From positions 124,001-188,000 of the forward strand of contig REDI01000039.1 of assembly GCA_007693595.1 (NCBI GenBank): DNA of 64,000 nucleotides, read 5' to 3'. Numbering within the stretch: position 1 is the first letter of the stretch; each line of letters opens with the position of its first letter. The stretch is from Deltaproteobacteria bacterium. GTDB lineage: Bacteria; Myxococcota_A; UBA796; GCA-2862545. Under the pieces are notes generated by a model. It saw only the letters and a program-made list of their open reading frames with translations, did not search any database and was not told the DNA's origin. The position numbers were made by a program, and so were the translations under genes. Shown piece after piece: positions 29,976 to 36,075 of this stretch.

Positions 29976-32900
29976 TCATGGGATCAGGTGGATCGGCAAG
30001 CGGACGTCGGTGGGCTCGATGTCGCGACCTTCAAGGGGGTCGAACGTGAGCCCTTCAAGCACCCGACGGAGGCAGCCCGCGGTGTTGTTGCCGGGAAGGT
30101 TGTCGTCCGAGACTGACATCTCGATGACCGAGCCGTCGGCCTGGACGATGAACTCGAAGGTCGCCCCGCCGCGACGATCGAGATCGGAGGGAGCACAGCC
30201 GCGGAGATCCGCCATGCTGAGGCGAGTCCGTCCACCGATCTCGCGGGCGCTGCGCGGCCCATCGGTGGTGACCGTCCCAAGTTGTGTCTCGATGAGGGCG
30301 GGCAAACCTGGGATGGCGCCGATGCTGCTGTGGAGCCATCGAGGCACCCACACAATGATGGCGAGACAGACGAGCATGAGGATCAAGAAGGGGAAGACCC
30401 CTTGGATCACCTTGACCACGTTTCGCTTGAAGGTGGTGCTCGCCACGAAGAGGTTGATGCCCATCGGCGGGGTCAGGTAGCCGAGCTCCAGGTTCACGAT
30501 GAACATGATGCCAAAGTGGATCGGGTGGATCCCGTACTGGGCTGCGATGGGGGTAAGGAGCGGGGCTACGATCAGGATCGCCGAGACGATATCCATCACC
30601 GTACCCAGTAACAGCAAGAAAATATTGACGAGTAACAGGAAGGTGAAGGGATCGTCGGCCCACGCGAGCAGCCCCTCTGCGGCCATCTGAGGCACTTCGA
30701 GGCCTGCGAGCAGCTTGTTGAGCGAGATCGCGATCACGAGGATCAAGAAGAGGCTGCCGATCATCGTCGCGGTCTCGATGCAGACCTTGGGCACCTGCGA
30801 GAACTTGAGCTCTCGGTGGATCAACAGCTCCACCACCAGCGCGTAGACGACGGCGAAGGCAGCGGCCTGGGTGACATCGAGGGTGAAGGGGCTGCCGAAC
30901 ATGTGGCCGTAGATGCCTCCTAGGACAAGGATGGGCAGCATCAGGCTCGCGATGCCTCGCAGGAAGGTGACGCGCAGATCTCGGGTGTAGTTCCCGGAGA
31001 GCGAGTCGTCGGGGTCTTCTCCGGGCTTGAGCGGTCCCCCCTTCTGTCCAGGCCGGGGCCAGTTGACGTAGAGGGTGTAGGCGATGAGGGCGCCCGCCAC
31101 GAGCGCGCCAGGTGCGAAGCCGCCGAGGAAGAGCTCGGTGGGTGAGACGATGCCCACAATGCCGCCCGGGTTCGACACCATGACCGCGAAGATGATCATG
31201 GGGACGGACGGCGGGATGATGATGCCCAGACCGCCCGATGTGGTCAGGAGGCCAAGGCCGAACTTCTCGGAGTAGCCTTGCTTCACCAACATGGGGAAGA
31301 GGATGGTCCCGATCGCGATGACGGTCGCGGGGGACGATCCCGAGATGGCTGCGAAGATCGCACAGGCGACGACGCCGGCGACGCCCAGGCCACCGGGGAG
31401 CGGCCCGACGACGGCGCGCGCGAAGTCGATCAGGCGCCGGGCGATCGAGCCGTGGGTCATCAGGTTGCCGGCGAGGACGAAGAAGGGGATAGCGATGATC
31501 TCCTGCTTCTTCGTGGCCTCGAACATGTCCTTCACCAAACTCTCGGCGGAGGTCTCTTGAATGAGCATCCAGCCGGCGAGCGTACCGACGCCTACGCCGA
31601 TGAAGAGAGGTGCGCCCATGAAGACGAGCAACAAGCTCGCGACGATGATCATCCAGCCTTGCCCGAGCCAGACGGCAAGCCCGAGGGTGATCAGCGCGCC
31701 GGGGAAGGCGCCGGCGAGGATGACATCGACGGGTTTGCGTGTGCCGGGCTTGACCTTCTTGGGGAGGAGCGGGACCTCTTGGCCTGGGGGCGAGGCGGCG
31801 AAGACCGCGAAGCGGATCCCCATCACGACGAAGGTGACGAAGAGGATCAGCAGCGGGAGCCAGAGCGGGAAGGACGACCCGATCCCTACGGTCTGATAAG
31901 CCGTCCCATAGGGCCAAGAGAGGCCTTGTTCGATCATCGCGGCTTCCCAAGCCGACCGGCTGGGGTAGGTACCGCCGGGGCCATAGGTGTCGCCAGGCAT
32001 GAGCCGCGTGAGCAGGTTGATCGGCTCGACGAGCCACCACCAGACCTTCGCTCCAGGGAAGGTGTCGCCGCTGCCCTTGGGCGAGGTGATGAGCTCCCAG
32101 GTCGCGCCCGCCATCAACAGGGTGAACCCCGCCGCCGCGAGCGAGGTCAACCGCTTGACGAGCTTGGCAGGGGCCGGAGAGAGGATCCGGTCGACGGCGT
32201 CGACGGAGAGGTGGTTGCGATCCTGCGTGGCGACCGAGGCACCCAGGAACCCGAGGGCGACCATCAGCATGAGGGCGAAGTTCATCTGACCTTCGCCTTT
32301 CCAGGGGTTCCACCAACCCGAGTCGGGCAAGCACTGCCACGTCCGCCCGTTGCAGCGCAGGTGGATCGTGGAGGCCCCTTCGTCGACGCGCAGCGAGCCT
32401 GCGGTGCGACCTTCGTGCTCCCCGAAGTCGGCGAGCACGATGTAGGAGCCTGGAGGAACCGCGCCGGGTAGCTCGATCGTGTCGATCCCAACGGCGCGAT
32501 GGTTCTTGCCGCCGCCCCGAATGTTGACCTGCACAGGTTCGGTGGGCTCGGCGTCGACCGCTTCTTGGGCGGCGGGGGCTTCGGCTGCCGCCACGCTGGG
32601 CGTCTTCAGCGCCTCGAGGGTCGAGGGACGGGGCTCACGGGTGCGGCAGGACTCGGCGAAGGAGTCGCACTTGAGCTCGATGAGTCCCGGTTCGATGAGC
32701 TCGAACTCCCCGGCCTCGAGGGGCTCGTCGTATCCGGGGAAGGTGGCGGAGGCGGTGTAGGTGCCCGGTTGGACCTGGTCGGGCATGGGGAAGGTCTCGC
32801 CCGCCTCGTTGGTGAGGGAGACCTCCTCAGCGTCGCCGGTGAGCAGCACCCGGACCATGCCCTCGGTGACGGCGAGGGGATCGGCGGCAGGGGCAGGGGG

Positions 32901-33923
32901 TGGCGCGGCGGCGGCCTCGCGTGCGGCGTCGAGCGCGCGTTGACGGGGCTCACGGGTACGGCAGGACTCGGCGAAGGAGTCGCACTTGAGCTCGATGAGT
33001 CCCGAGTCGACGAGCTCGAACTCCCCGGCGTCGAGGGGCTCGTCGTATCCGGGGAAGGTGGCGGCGGCGGTGTAGGTCCCCGGCTGGACCTGGTCGGGCA
33101 TGGGGAAGGTCTCGCCCGCCTCGTTGGTGAGGGAGACCTCCTCAGCGTCGCCGGAGAGCAGCACGCGGATCAACCCCTCGGTGACGGCGAGGGGGTCTGC
33201 GGTCTGGGCGGCATCGCCCGACGGATCGGGGCTGGGCGCGCTGGACGCTGCCTTGAGGGCGGCCTTGGAGGGCTGGCGAGACCGACAGGACTCGGCGAAG
33301 GAGTCGCACTTGAGCTCAATGAGACCGGGTTCGAGCAGCTCGAAGCTGCCAGCGTCCAAGGGCTCGTCGTAGCCCGGAAAGCTCGCCGCAGAGCTGTAGG
33401 TGCCTGGAGAAACCTCGGCGGGCAGCTCGACCGTCGCGCCATCGTCGCCGGTGAGGGTGACCTTGTCGGCGTCGCCGGTGAGCAGCACGCGGACCATGCC
33501 CTCGGTGAACGAGACCTCGGCGGGAACGGACTCTGTCGGCTGGGGCGTGCGAGCTGCCTCGTCGGGATCGGCCGGTTCCGGTGCGGCGGGCTCTGGGGTG
33601 GAGGGGTCTTCTACGGGGGCTGAGGTGGTGGCCCACTTGTCGAAGACCGAGGCTTGCTCGATGAGGTAGGTGTTGAAGACCAGGGCGGTCATGCCTAGCG
33701 TGACCACGACGATGAGCGCGCGCTCGGCCCAGCCGATCCCTCGGTCGATCCATCGCCAGACGGCTCCCACCACGACCACGATCCCGGTGAGGACGAGCAC
33801 GAGGTAGAAGATCAGCCCTTGAAGCGGACCCTCCGTGAGCTGGCGGACTCCGTTGACCGCGTTCGTGACCAGCCCACGAAAGAAGCTGTCGATCGCGCCG
33901 AGCATCGCGCCGATGCCTTCCAT
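29976..33923 (-). CDS. fused TRAP permease (QM) with periplasmic repeat insertion and AgmX/TonB-C-like tail
   Basis: The 1315-residue protein is a TRAP permease with additions. An extra N-terminal membrane helix (about 38-56) precedes the Q part, whose TM1 is about 67-88. Before TM2 (about 547-563) comes an insertion of about 450 residues: an acidic Pro-rich linker, three near-identical 83-residue units (about 138-219, 246-327, 350-432) and a fourth divergent one (464-533). Each unit ends in a CX6C pair. Q resumes with DRNHLSVDAVDRIL and TM3/TM4. The M part (about 760-1192) has IPFFVLAGNLMTHGSIARRL, FAAISGSSPATVIAIGTILF, GGLGIIIPPSVPMII and LELGYLTPPMGINLF. The tail (about 1225-1315) resembles AgmX/TonB C-terminal domains (FEFIVQADGSVIEMSVSDDN). 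It is the third gene after tatT and tatP, and transports an unknown organic anion. Confidence 0.88.
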   Translation of the reverse strand: MEGIGAMLGAIDSFFRGLVTNAVNGVRQLTEGPLQGLIFYLVLVLTGIVVVVGAVWRWIDRGIGWAERALIVVVTLGMTALVFNTYLIEQASVFDKWATTSAPVEDPSTPEPAAPEPADPDEAARTPQPTESVPAEVSFTEGMVRVLLTGDADKVTLTGDDGATVELPAEVSPGTYSSAASFPGYDEPLDAGSFELLEPGLIELKCDSFAESCRSRQPSKAALKAASSAPSPDPSGDAAQTADPLAVTEGLIRVLLSGDAEEVSLTNEAGETFPMPDQVQPGTYTAAATFPGYDEPLDAGEFELVDSGLIELKCDSFAESCRTREPRQRALDAAREAAAAPPPAPAADPLAVTEGMVRVLLTGDAEEVSLTNEAGETFPMPDQVQPGTYTASATFPGYDEPLEAGEFELIEPGLIELKCDSFAESCRTREPRPSTLEALKTPSVAAAEAPAAQEAVDAEPTEPVQVNIRGGGKNHRAVGIDTIELPGAVPPGSYIVLADFGEHEGRTAGSLRVDEGASTIHLRCNGRTWQCLPDSGWWNPWKGEGQMNFALMLMVALGFLGASVATQDRNHLSVDAVDRILSPAPAKLVKRLTSLAAAGFTLLMAGATWELITSPKGSGDTFPGAKVWWWLVEPINLLTRLMPGDTYGPGGTYPSRSAWEAAMIEQGLSWPYGTAYQTVGIGSSFPLWLPLLILFVTFVVMGIRFAVFAASPPGQEVPLLPKKVKPGTRKPVDVILAGAFPGALITLGLAVWLGQGWMIIVASLLLVFMGAPLFIGVGVGTLAGWMLIQETSAESLVKDMFEATKKQEIIAIPFFVLAGNLMTHGSIARRLIDFARAVVGPLPGGLGVAGVVACAIFAAISGSSPATVIAIGTILFPMLVKQGYSEKFGLGLLTTSGGLGIIIPPSVPMIIFAVMVSNPGGIVGIVSPTELFLGGFAPGALVAGALIAYTLYVNWPRPGQKGGPLKPGEDPDDSLSGNYTRDLRVTFLRGIASLMLPILVLGGIYGHMFGSPFTLDVTQAAAFAVVYALVVELLIHRELKFSQVPKVCIETATMIGSLFLILVIAISLNKLLAGLEVPQMAAEGLLAWADDPFTFLLLVNIFLLLLGTVMDIVSAILIVAPLLTPIAAQYGIHPIHFGIMFIVNLELGYLTPPMGINLFVASTTFKRNVVKVIQGVFPFLILMLVCLAIIVWVPRWLHSSIGAIPGLPALIETQLGTVTTDGPRSAREIGGRTRLSMADLRGCAPSDLDRRGGATFEFIVQADGSVIEMSVSDDNLPGNNTAGCLRRVLEGLTFDPLEGRDIEPTDVRLPIHLIP
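32325..33512 (-). repeat. intragenic repeats: three near-identical 250-base units plus a divergent fourth
   Basis: Units lie at about 33267-33512, 32943-33188, 32628-32876 and (divergent) 32325-32534. Units two and three are almost identical in DNA over long stretches; for example the 60 or so bases following 32780 recur from about 33091. Unit one is similar in protein but more diverged in DNA. Each encodes a TEGxxRVLL-type start, a PGTY and a FPGYDEPL segment, and ends LIELKCDSFAESCR. Confidence 0.9.
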
Positions 33924-34114: not shown

Positions 34115-35131
34115 CTACTTGCCGCGCTCTGCGATCTTGGCGCGGATCTCTTTGAGCAGCTCTGGACCGCCGTCGATGCCGGCTGCGAAGGAGTCGTGCA
34201 TGCCCCTGGCGGGCTTGGCGAAGGCTTCGCGCTGCTGGGCGTTGAGCTCGATGACCTCGACCCCGAAGAACTCCCAGTTGTCCATCATGGCGCCCTCTTC
34301 GGCACGGATCATGCGGCGACCCTTGGCGCTCAGGTCATCGACATCCATGACGATCTCTTGAAGATCGGCGGGGAGCTTATCGAACCATGCCTTGGAGTAT
34401 AGGATCGCGGCAGGCTGGTAGATGTGCCGGCTCAGGGTGAAGTACTTGAGCGGCTCACCCAGGCCACCGGCCTGCATGAAGAGGGCGGTGTTGTCGAGCC
34501 CGTCGAGCACGTTGCTGTTCAGGCCCGTCAGGACCTCGGTCATCGGCTTCTCGACCGCCGTGGCCCCATACATACGGTACATCGCCATATGGACGTCGGA
34601 CTCCTGAGCCCGCATCTTGAGGCCCTTGAGGTCTTCGGGGGTGCGGATGGCCTTGGACTTGGTGCCGAAGGAACGCCAGCCGTTCTCGCTCCAGATGGCG
34701 AGCTTGAAGCCGCGACGCTCCAGGATAGATCCCATGGTGCCCTTCAGGCCGTCTAGAACGAAGTCTGCCTCGGCGTTGTTCCGAAAGAGGAAGGGGAGCT
34801 CCACGAGCTGCATGGTTGGCACGTTGCCGCCCTGCGCGATGGCCGCTGTGGTGACGCCGCAGGCTTGGAGGCGCTCCCCCTTGCGGGTCTCTTGGACCAT
34901 CTCGACCTCGCCCATGAAGCCCGCCGGACGGAGCGCCACGCGCAGACGGTTGCCGGACTTCTCTTCGAAGCGCTCCTTCACTTCGCGAAGGAGCTTACGC
35001 CAAGGGGAGCCCTCGGGTGCGAGGCTGCCGACGGCGAGCTCAATCGGGCTGTTGGCCTCGACCACGGTGGAGGTGGTCGCGACGGTCAGCGCGGTGACGG
35101 CCGCGAGGGCGAGAGAGAGGGTGCGCTTCAT
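34115..35131 (-). CDS. TRAP solute-binding protein (DctP/TatP type)
   Basis: It is the periplasmic binding protein of the TRAP system. Starting at 35131 (GGAG 8 bases upstream) gives 338 residues with a Sec signal peptide (KRTLSLALAAVTALTVATTS). Family landmarks are LAPEGSPWRKLLREVKERFE, GVTTAAIAQGGNVPTMQLVE, the RTPEDLKGLKMRAQESDVH strand with the usual ligand-coordinating arginine, and EVLTGLNSNVLDGLDN. It lies between tatT and the permease gene, as in TPAT loci. Confidence 0.92.
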   Translation of the reverse strand: MKRTLSLALAAVTALTVATTSTVVEANSPIELAVGSLAPEGSPWRKLLREVKERFEEKSGNRLRVALRPAGFMGEVEMVQETRKGERLQACGVTTAAIAQGGNVPTMQLVELPFLFRNNAEADFVLDGLKGTMGSILERRGFKLAIWSENGWRSFGTKSKAIRTPEDLKGLKMRAQESDVHMAMYRMYGATAVEKPMTEVLTGLNSNVLDGLDNTALFMQAGGLGEPLKYFTLSRHIYQPAAILYSKAWFDKLPADLQEIVMDVDDLSAKGRRMIRAEEGAMMDNWEFFGVEVIELNAQQREAFAKPARGMHDSFAAGIDGGPELLKEIRAKIAERGK

Positions 35132-35187: not shown

Positions 35188-36075
35188 TCATTCCCCTGCA
35201 GCTTGCAGGGCCTTTTTATCGAAGAGCTCGGCCCGCTGGTCGAGGACCTTTCGCGCCTTGACTTGCTCCCGCGTGTTCTCGGGCTCGAGGTCGGGCACAC
35301 TGCTCACGTCGAACTCGAGGACGAGCTTGAGATCGCGGTCGAACATGGCGACGTCTTGCAGGCCGACCGCCAAGTTCTCGGCGCGCAGTACGTAGGAGCC
35401 GAGGTAGCTCGGTGATCCGCTCAGGGTGTCTTCGAAGTAGCTGGCGCTCTTCTCGAGGTCGCGTCCGGCGAAGCCGGGGATCACGGAGTAGTAGGCTCCC
35501 CAGTAGCGAGCGGGCGCGTGGTAGAAGTAATTGGGGTCGAGCTCCTCGACGCGCCCGACGTAGGCCTTGACGGTGCCGAGGTGCTTGATGCTCTTGGCGA
35601 TACCGCTGGCCTTGGCCCACTTACCCAGCGACGAGGCCGTCCAGTAAACGCAGGGGACGTCGTCTTTGGTGAGGACATCGACGGCGTCGCGCTCCTTCGT
35701 ACCGCTGTTGACCTTGCTCGCGAAGGCCTCGTTGATGGCCATGCAGCGCTTGCCCCACTCGATGGCCTTCAGGTAGGTCTCGATCTGCTGATCGGGGTCG
35801 TCGGTCCAGGCATCGGCCAGGAAGTACCAACCCCGCGTGGCCTTGGCATGGACTTCGCGGTCGCTCGGGTTGGCCTCCGCGAGACGCTCGTAGGCGGCGA
35901 TGGCTTCTTTGAGCTTGTTGACATCGCCCCGCTGGCCCCAAAGGTCGTCGGCCTCCTTTCGCGCCGCGGCATCGGTCGCGCCTGCACCGCCGAGGGTCTC
36001 GTAGGCGCCGGGGTTCTTGCCGCCGCAAGCCGCGAGGGTGAGGGCGCTGAGGATGAGAGCTGAACGAAACGACAT
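35188..36075 (-). CDS. TatT-type tetratricopeptide lipoprotein associated with TRAP transporter
   Basis: The 295-residue lipoprotein has signal peptide SFRSALILSALTLAACGG with lipobox LAAC. The mature part is helical and matches the TatT family (LKEAIAAYERLAEANPSDRE, then RGWYFLADAW, VPCVYWTASSLGKWAKASGI, and YYSVIPGFAGRDLEKSASYF near the C terminus). In Treponema pallidum, TatT binds the cognate binding protein and is proposed to pass hydrophobic ligands. It is the first gene of the operon. Confidence 0.88.
   Translation of the reverse strand: MSFRSALILSALTLAACGGKNPGAYETLGGAGATDAAARKEADDLWGQRGDVNKLKEAIAAYERLAEANPSDREVHAKATRGWYFLADAWTDDPDQQIETYLKAIEWGKRCMAINEAFASKVNSGTKERDAVDVLTKDDVPCVYWTASSLGKWAKASGIAKSIKHLGTVKAYVGRVEELDPNYFYHAPARYWGAYYSVIPGFAGRDLEKSASYFEDTLSGSPSYLGSYVLRAENLAVGLQDVAMFDRDLKLVLEFDVSSVPDLEPENTREQVKARKVLDQRAELFDKKALQAAGE

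Follow-up and report, generated by a model that had tools for sequence, protein, structure and literature searches.

A 64,000-nt stretch of a Deltaproteobacteria bacterium genome (assembly GCA_007693595.1, contig REDI01000039.1, positions 124,001 to 188,000; GTDB lineage Myxococcota_A; UBA796; GCA-2862545), hereafter the window, encodes a fused QM permease of the tripartite ATP-independent periplasmic (TRAP) transporter family. Its Q domain contains a large tandem insert, and we found that the repeated unit is an extracytoplasmic beta-sandwich domain that is specific to the order and typically forms the C-terminal tail of kinases. We tentatively propose, with a probability of roughly 0.4, that this captured domain, expanded and acidified, makes up a docking platform in the periplasm, away from the transport path, together with a C-terminal TonB/TolA-like tail. 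The features of the permease are as follows (positions in the window, residues of the protein).

29976..33923, minus strand: fused TRAP QM permease (TatQM-type), 1315 residues, a single open frame matching DctM, DctQ and TIGR00786
33759..33815, minus strand: extra N-terminal hydrophobic helix ahead of Q1, residues 37-55, common to the subgroup
33660..33716, minus strand: Q1 helix, residues 70-88, aligned with Q1 of 15 relatives
32286..33659, minus strand: Q1-Q2 periplasmic loop, residues 89-546, containing the insert, from alignment and topology
33270..33503, minus strand: unit 1, residues 141-218
32946..33179, minus strand: unit 2, residues 249-326
32631..32864, minus strand: unit 3, residues 354-431, eight strands at a predicted local distance difference test (pLDDT) of 89 in AlphaFold2
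32322..32543, minus strand: unit 4, divergent, residues 461-534, conserved in the genus sibling
32229..32285, minus strand: Q2 helix, residues 547-565, from alignment and topology
30336..31640, minus strand: M (elevator) domain, residues 762-1196
29979..30281, minus strand: C-terminal TonB/TolA-like (AgmX/PglI-type) domain, residues 1215-1315, from profile and structural matches

The gene reads in one frame, as a first-pass annotation of this DNA had described it, and exceeds the curated cut-offs of Pfam DctM (E = 5.5e-95, 319 bits, cut-off 23.8), Pfam DctQ (E = 7e-10, 39.3 bits, cut-off 28.3) and the dctM subfamily TIGR00786 (372.5 bits, cut-off 268.45). In an alignment with its counterpart from one sibling of the genus and 15 other fused QM permeases of the same order, the Q and M cores are conserved, including the core residues; the transport core is ordinary and, by homology, would operate as an elevator. 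The same alignment places an insert of ~440 residues exactly between Q1 (...NTYLIEQ) and Q2 (EGQMNFALML...), at a point where all 15 more distant relatives have a short loop of ~13-25 residues; in our named set, 29-36 residues separate the conserved Q1 and Q2 motifs of the other fused QM permeases. The insert occurs in two of the 63 genomes of the order, those of the window and of the sibling, and when the named collection is restricted to its 80 best TatQM/DctM loci, only that of the sibling carries the repeat domain. The fusion is therefore not a common TRAP architecture, in agreement with the earlier annotation, which knew of no comparable insertion.

Solved fused TRAP permeases consist of Q1-Q4 plus TM1-11 (PMC9352664), and the N-terminus of SiaQM has been assigned to the cytoplasm and its C-terminus to the periplasm (PMC11801797). 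By homology to this topology, the periplasm is the predicted location of the insert as well as of the C-terminal tail, and the charge distribution fits the positive-inside rule with the insert on the outer side; the periplasmic location suggested earlier for the Q1-Q2 loop is thus supported. HiSiaQM, FnSiaQM and the isethionate DctMQ have Q1-Q4, the linking helix, the elevator M domain and the N-in/C-out arrangement in common with the window permease, but their periplasmic Q loops are short and they have neither the extra N-terminal helix nor the C-terminal domain. The window permease shows that sizeable soluble modules can be accommodated in the Q domain, the periplasmic loops of which face the binding protein.

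At the DNA level, three direct copies of 268 nt lie in the 5′ third of the gene, with a spacing of 315 and 324 nt; measured against the reference copy, the other two show 93% and 73% identity. The domain comprises ~78 residues and recurs with a period of 105-108 residues, the units being joined by Pro/Ala/Glu linkers. The first-pass annotation counted three near-identical units of 83 residues; the repeats are real, but near-identity is limited to units 2 and 3 (~90% amino acid identity), with unit 1 at ~70% and unit 4 at ~34% or lower. All four units close with the CX6C motif that had been noted at their ends, and when the other carriers are included, 62 of 64 domains have it. Because DsbA and VKOR genes are present, the disulfides proposed earlier are feasible.

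Where might this domain have come from? Of 58 genomes of the order, 56 matched a profile of the unit, often in several copies, and a sample of the phylum gave a consistent picture: all 25 genomes of the order contained it, with 1 to 15 matches each, and just two borderline matches appeared among 117 genomes of the same phylum outside the order. In a census of 61 non-redundant carrier proteins, 42 are kinases, recognized by the HRDxK motif, with one copy of the domain no more than 15 residues from the C-terminus; Pfam Pkinase was confirmed in both of the kinases tested. A further 16 proteins have a single, near C-terminal copy, several of them truncated at contig ends. The remaining three entries are pieces of QM permeases, and only there is the domain internal and in tandem. 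The carriers outside QM mostly cross the membrane once. The tail domain of the kinases inspected follows a transmembrane segment and a Pro/Ala-rich linker, which makes the domain extracytoplasmic in these proteins as well. Two kinases with this tail are encoded in the window's own genome (G000:C73:84740-84940 and G000:C5:87603-87776). The idea that the repeat is a TRAP-specific module, confined to TatT-linked QM genes, was therefore rejected; a tail domain of signalling kinases is evidently reusable in a transporter. The earlier annotation had also allowed that the repeat might prove to be a known domain with an unrelated role: the kinase tails do provide such a use, but no library that we searched names the domain, which is thereby exposed as an order-specific extracytoplasmic domain.

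Pfam gave no family for the unit. CarboxypepD_reg (PF13620) matched 14 of 24 domain members weakly (best 1.6e-6) and the window protein at 17.9 bits, under the gathering cut-off of 32.3; transthyretins, which resemble this sandwich, are among the structural matches described below, but the QM units differ from CarboxypepD_reg in this sub-gathering score and in their terminal CX6C hairpin. The PEGA domain (PF08308) was considered but discarded after it matched neither the 24 members nor the window protein, and a sequence search for a solved relative of the unit returned none that was credible. An AlphaFold2 model built from five sequences of the window genome and its sibling (pLDDT 89) has eight strands, with both cysteines on the last hairpin. 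Its closest structural alignments were to the extracellular domains of PepT2 and PepT1 (Z 8.9 to 7.0), followed by HGSNAT, AlgF and transthyretins; the PepT2 domain aligned with VIA Z 8.9 and a root-mean-square deviation of 2.4 Å over 79 residues at 6% identity.

How might the insert have arisen, and what might it do? The kinase tail and the QM units share a match to the same hidden Markov model, the CX6C motif and a preceding Pro/Ala-rich linker. However, the tail is single-copy, C-terminal and near-neutral (mean net charge -0.17, standard deviation 2.2, n = 42), whereas the QM units are tandem and internal, and units 1-3 are strongly acidic (net charges -9, -11 and -11 in the window; -7 and -7 for units of the sibling). 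We tentatively propose that a TPAT permease (that is, one of a tetratricopeptide repeat protein-associated TRAP transporter) captured the order-specific tail domain of a Ser/Thr kinase, that this domain entered the periplasmic Q1-Q2 loop and was then duplicated in tandem with Pro/Ala/Glu linkers, and that the surface of the units turned strongly acidic. The C-terminal TonB/TolA-like domain would have been gained on this same branch. The insert and tail might then recruit a partner, perhaps basic, from the periplasm or the outer membrane and concentrate it at the permease, and elevator transport of the ligand delivered by the lipoprotein TatT and the binding protein TatP would be unchanged.

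The unit sequence is under constraint, with ratios of nonsynonymous to synonymous substitution (dN/dS) between units of 0.32-0.50, and this bears directly on the first of the alternatives, which we rank in the order inert spacer, tether and kinase-linked sensor. A self-folding domain might simply have hitch-hiked into a tolerant loop and been expanded by slippage, with little function. The Q1-Q2 and Q3-Q4 loops do tolerate insertions elsewhere, namely the helices of unfused Q subunits and the Q3-Q4 insert of loci L008 and L077; moreover, the duplication that gave units 2 and 3 is recent (synonymous divergence dS 0.09) and the insert is confined to one genus. A mere spacer would not, however, be expected to evolve under purifying selection (dN/dS ~0.33 for unit 1 against units 2 and 3), to retain CX6C in every unit, to undergo an acidic shift common to both species, to preserve the divergent unit 4 in both, or to be accompanied by the co-acquired tail. 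We regard this explanation as unlikely, while giving it more weight than any other alternative to the docking platform.

For the docking platform, the PepT1 and PepT2 peptide transporters offer a possible model. Acidic residues in their two inserted tandem Ig-like domains mediate a salt-sensitive binding of trypsin, and transport suffers no appreciable loss when the domains are deleted (PMC4597091). The likeness lies in acidic tandem beta-sandwiches that a secondary transporter carries in an extracytoplasmic loop, and the window insert may work in a similar way; the two differ in that PepT has another transporter fold and no sequence relation, and that a partner has been shown for PepT only. 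The C-terminal tail, absent from the first-pass annotation, is a better hint of envelope contact than the reach proposed for the insert. The last ~100 residues match the AgmX/PglI model NF033768 in both the window (E = 2e-5, 24.5 bits) and the sibling (E = 9e-5, 22.5 bits), and a tail model from these two sequences (pLDDT 61), in which the elements follow a beta-beta-alpha-beta order, retrieved TonB/TolA-type C-terminal domains in all of its top 23 structural rows (Z 7.5 to 4.2; the next at 3.5). The tail resembles the AgmX/PglI and TonB/TolA domains in this modelled order of elements and in the weak but repeated sequence match, and differs in being fused to a TRAP permease. On QM permeases it is found in this genus only, according to the QM alignment and the relatives. 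An AgmX-like C-terminal domain (E = 8.8e-5) also occurs on the unfused DctM of locus L031 (G056), apparently through an independent gain.

Several points weigh against the docking proposal. No partner was identified, the insert is carried by two genomes only, and unit 4 of the window has a net charge of 0. Being a closed loop, the insert would reach no further than about half its contour. By computed charge, TatT is acidic and TatP approximately neutral. The AgmX score of the tail falls below the curated cut-off of 40 bits, and the pLDDT of its model is low. Finally, Foldseek found nothing for the unit at E ≤ 0.001 (best E 0.013, not a PepT entry), so the likeness to PepT is a common beta-sandwich arrangement rather than proof of kinship.

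Two genes directly upstream of the permease complete the transporter:

34115..35131, minus strand: TatP, a solute-binding protein of the DctP family (PF03480, 179.9 bits, cut-off 23.4)
35188..36075, minus strand: TatT lipoprotein with the lipobox LAAC (PF16811, 102.5 bits, cut-off 26.5)

A role in passing lipids across the periplasm has been proposed for TatT. Because TatT and TatP adjoin the QM gene, and the order TatT-TatP-Q/QM is kept in most of the 80 named loci, we classify the locus as TPAT-type, as had been done before. At locus L093 the gene order differs, with TatP called on a frame that overlaps the QM region instead of one located after TatT and before QM; the match to QM is interrupted there. 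The Treponema pallidum TPAT Tp0956-0958 likewise encodes a TatT lipoprotein, a DctP-family TatP and a fused QM together, and its TatT-TatP complex and hydrophobic ligand are known (PMC5812351). No TPAT in the literature examined combines a soluble tandem Q1-Q2 insert with a TonB/TolA-like tail, and only the sibling does so among the 80 loci.

This gene neighborhood raises the alternative that the insert directly holds TatP or TatT near the permease, which would accord with the observation that the periplasmic Q loops of HiSiaQM face the P subunit (PMC9352664). We consider such a tether improbable: other TPATs with TatT and TatP manage without the insert, and the charges of the two proteins do not fit their electrostatic capture, which we rejected; TatT being acidic as the insert is, and TatP near neutral, simple charge attraction is not indicated. 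A bolder possibility is that the permease itself extends toward the outer membrane, its acidic arm and tail together engaging outer-membrane or peptidoglycan partners, so that a hydrophobic ligand would pass from TatT at the outer membrane to TatP and on to a docked permease across the envelope; we hold this to be more doubtful still. Docking on the platform proposed above, if true, would provide a handle on how TPATs bridge the inner and outer membranes.

Alternatively, the permease might display the sensor domain of the kinases, pair homotypically with their tails and report transport activity to them. The prevalence of kinases among the carriers, including the two in the same genome, suggested this idea, but none of the named loci has a domain-bearing kinase gene in the vicinity of QM, and homotypic binding is not indicated because the QM units are acidic, unlike the kinase tails; such a role seems quite improbable. 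An assembly or annotation artefact, through a chimeric contig or a collapsed or expanded repeat, is the weakest explanation and can be set aside as highly improbable, for although both genomes are drafts (97 and 1330 contigs) and the sibling gene lies in two parts on contigs that each end within the repeats, the window gene is one open frame with similar G+C content at third codon positions in the insert (0.85) and the cores (0.87-0.88), both flanking junctions were found independently in the second species, and the units, at 73-93% DNA identity, are not an assembler duplicate. The insert is also present in the sibling and hence not confined to a single assembly, and its exact number of units is that given by a draft assembly.

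Myxococcota TPAT permeases often have elaborated periplasmic parts, of which the window permease is an extreme case. The earlier assumption that Q loops are normally short does not hold for TPATs in general: in unfused Q subunits of myxobacteria, additional hydrophobic segments, mostly paired, occupy the same Q1-Q2 site (L097, L098, L100, L102, L110, L111, L122, L125, L133, L143 and L146). The QM permeases of L008 (G019) and L077 contain a different, beta-rich insert of ~100 residues in the Q3-Q4 periplasmic loop, for which Pfam gave no confident match. In 17 of the 80 TPAT loci (L098-L101, L104, L108, L119, L133, L135, L137-L139, L141, L142, L144, L145 and L147), the M subunit ends in a C-terminal tail, periplasmic by topology, with two to four tandem motifs such as KSLQELMREAK; none would be expected from shuffled tails, and we know of no description of them. 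Related M tails of the MTMEEMMKKAQ type occur in L024-L031.

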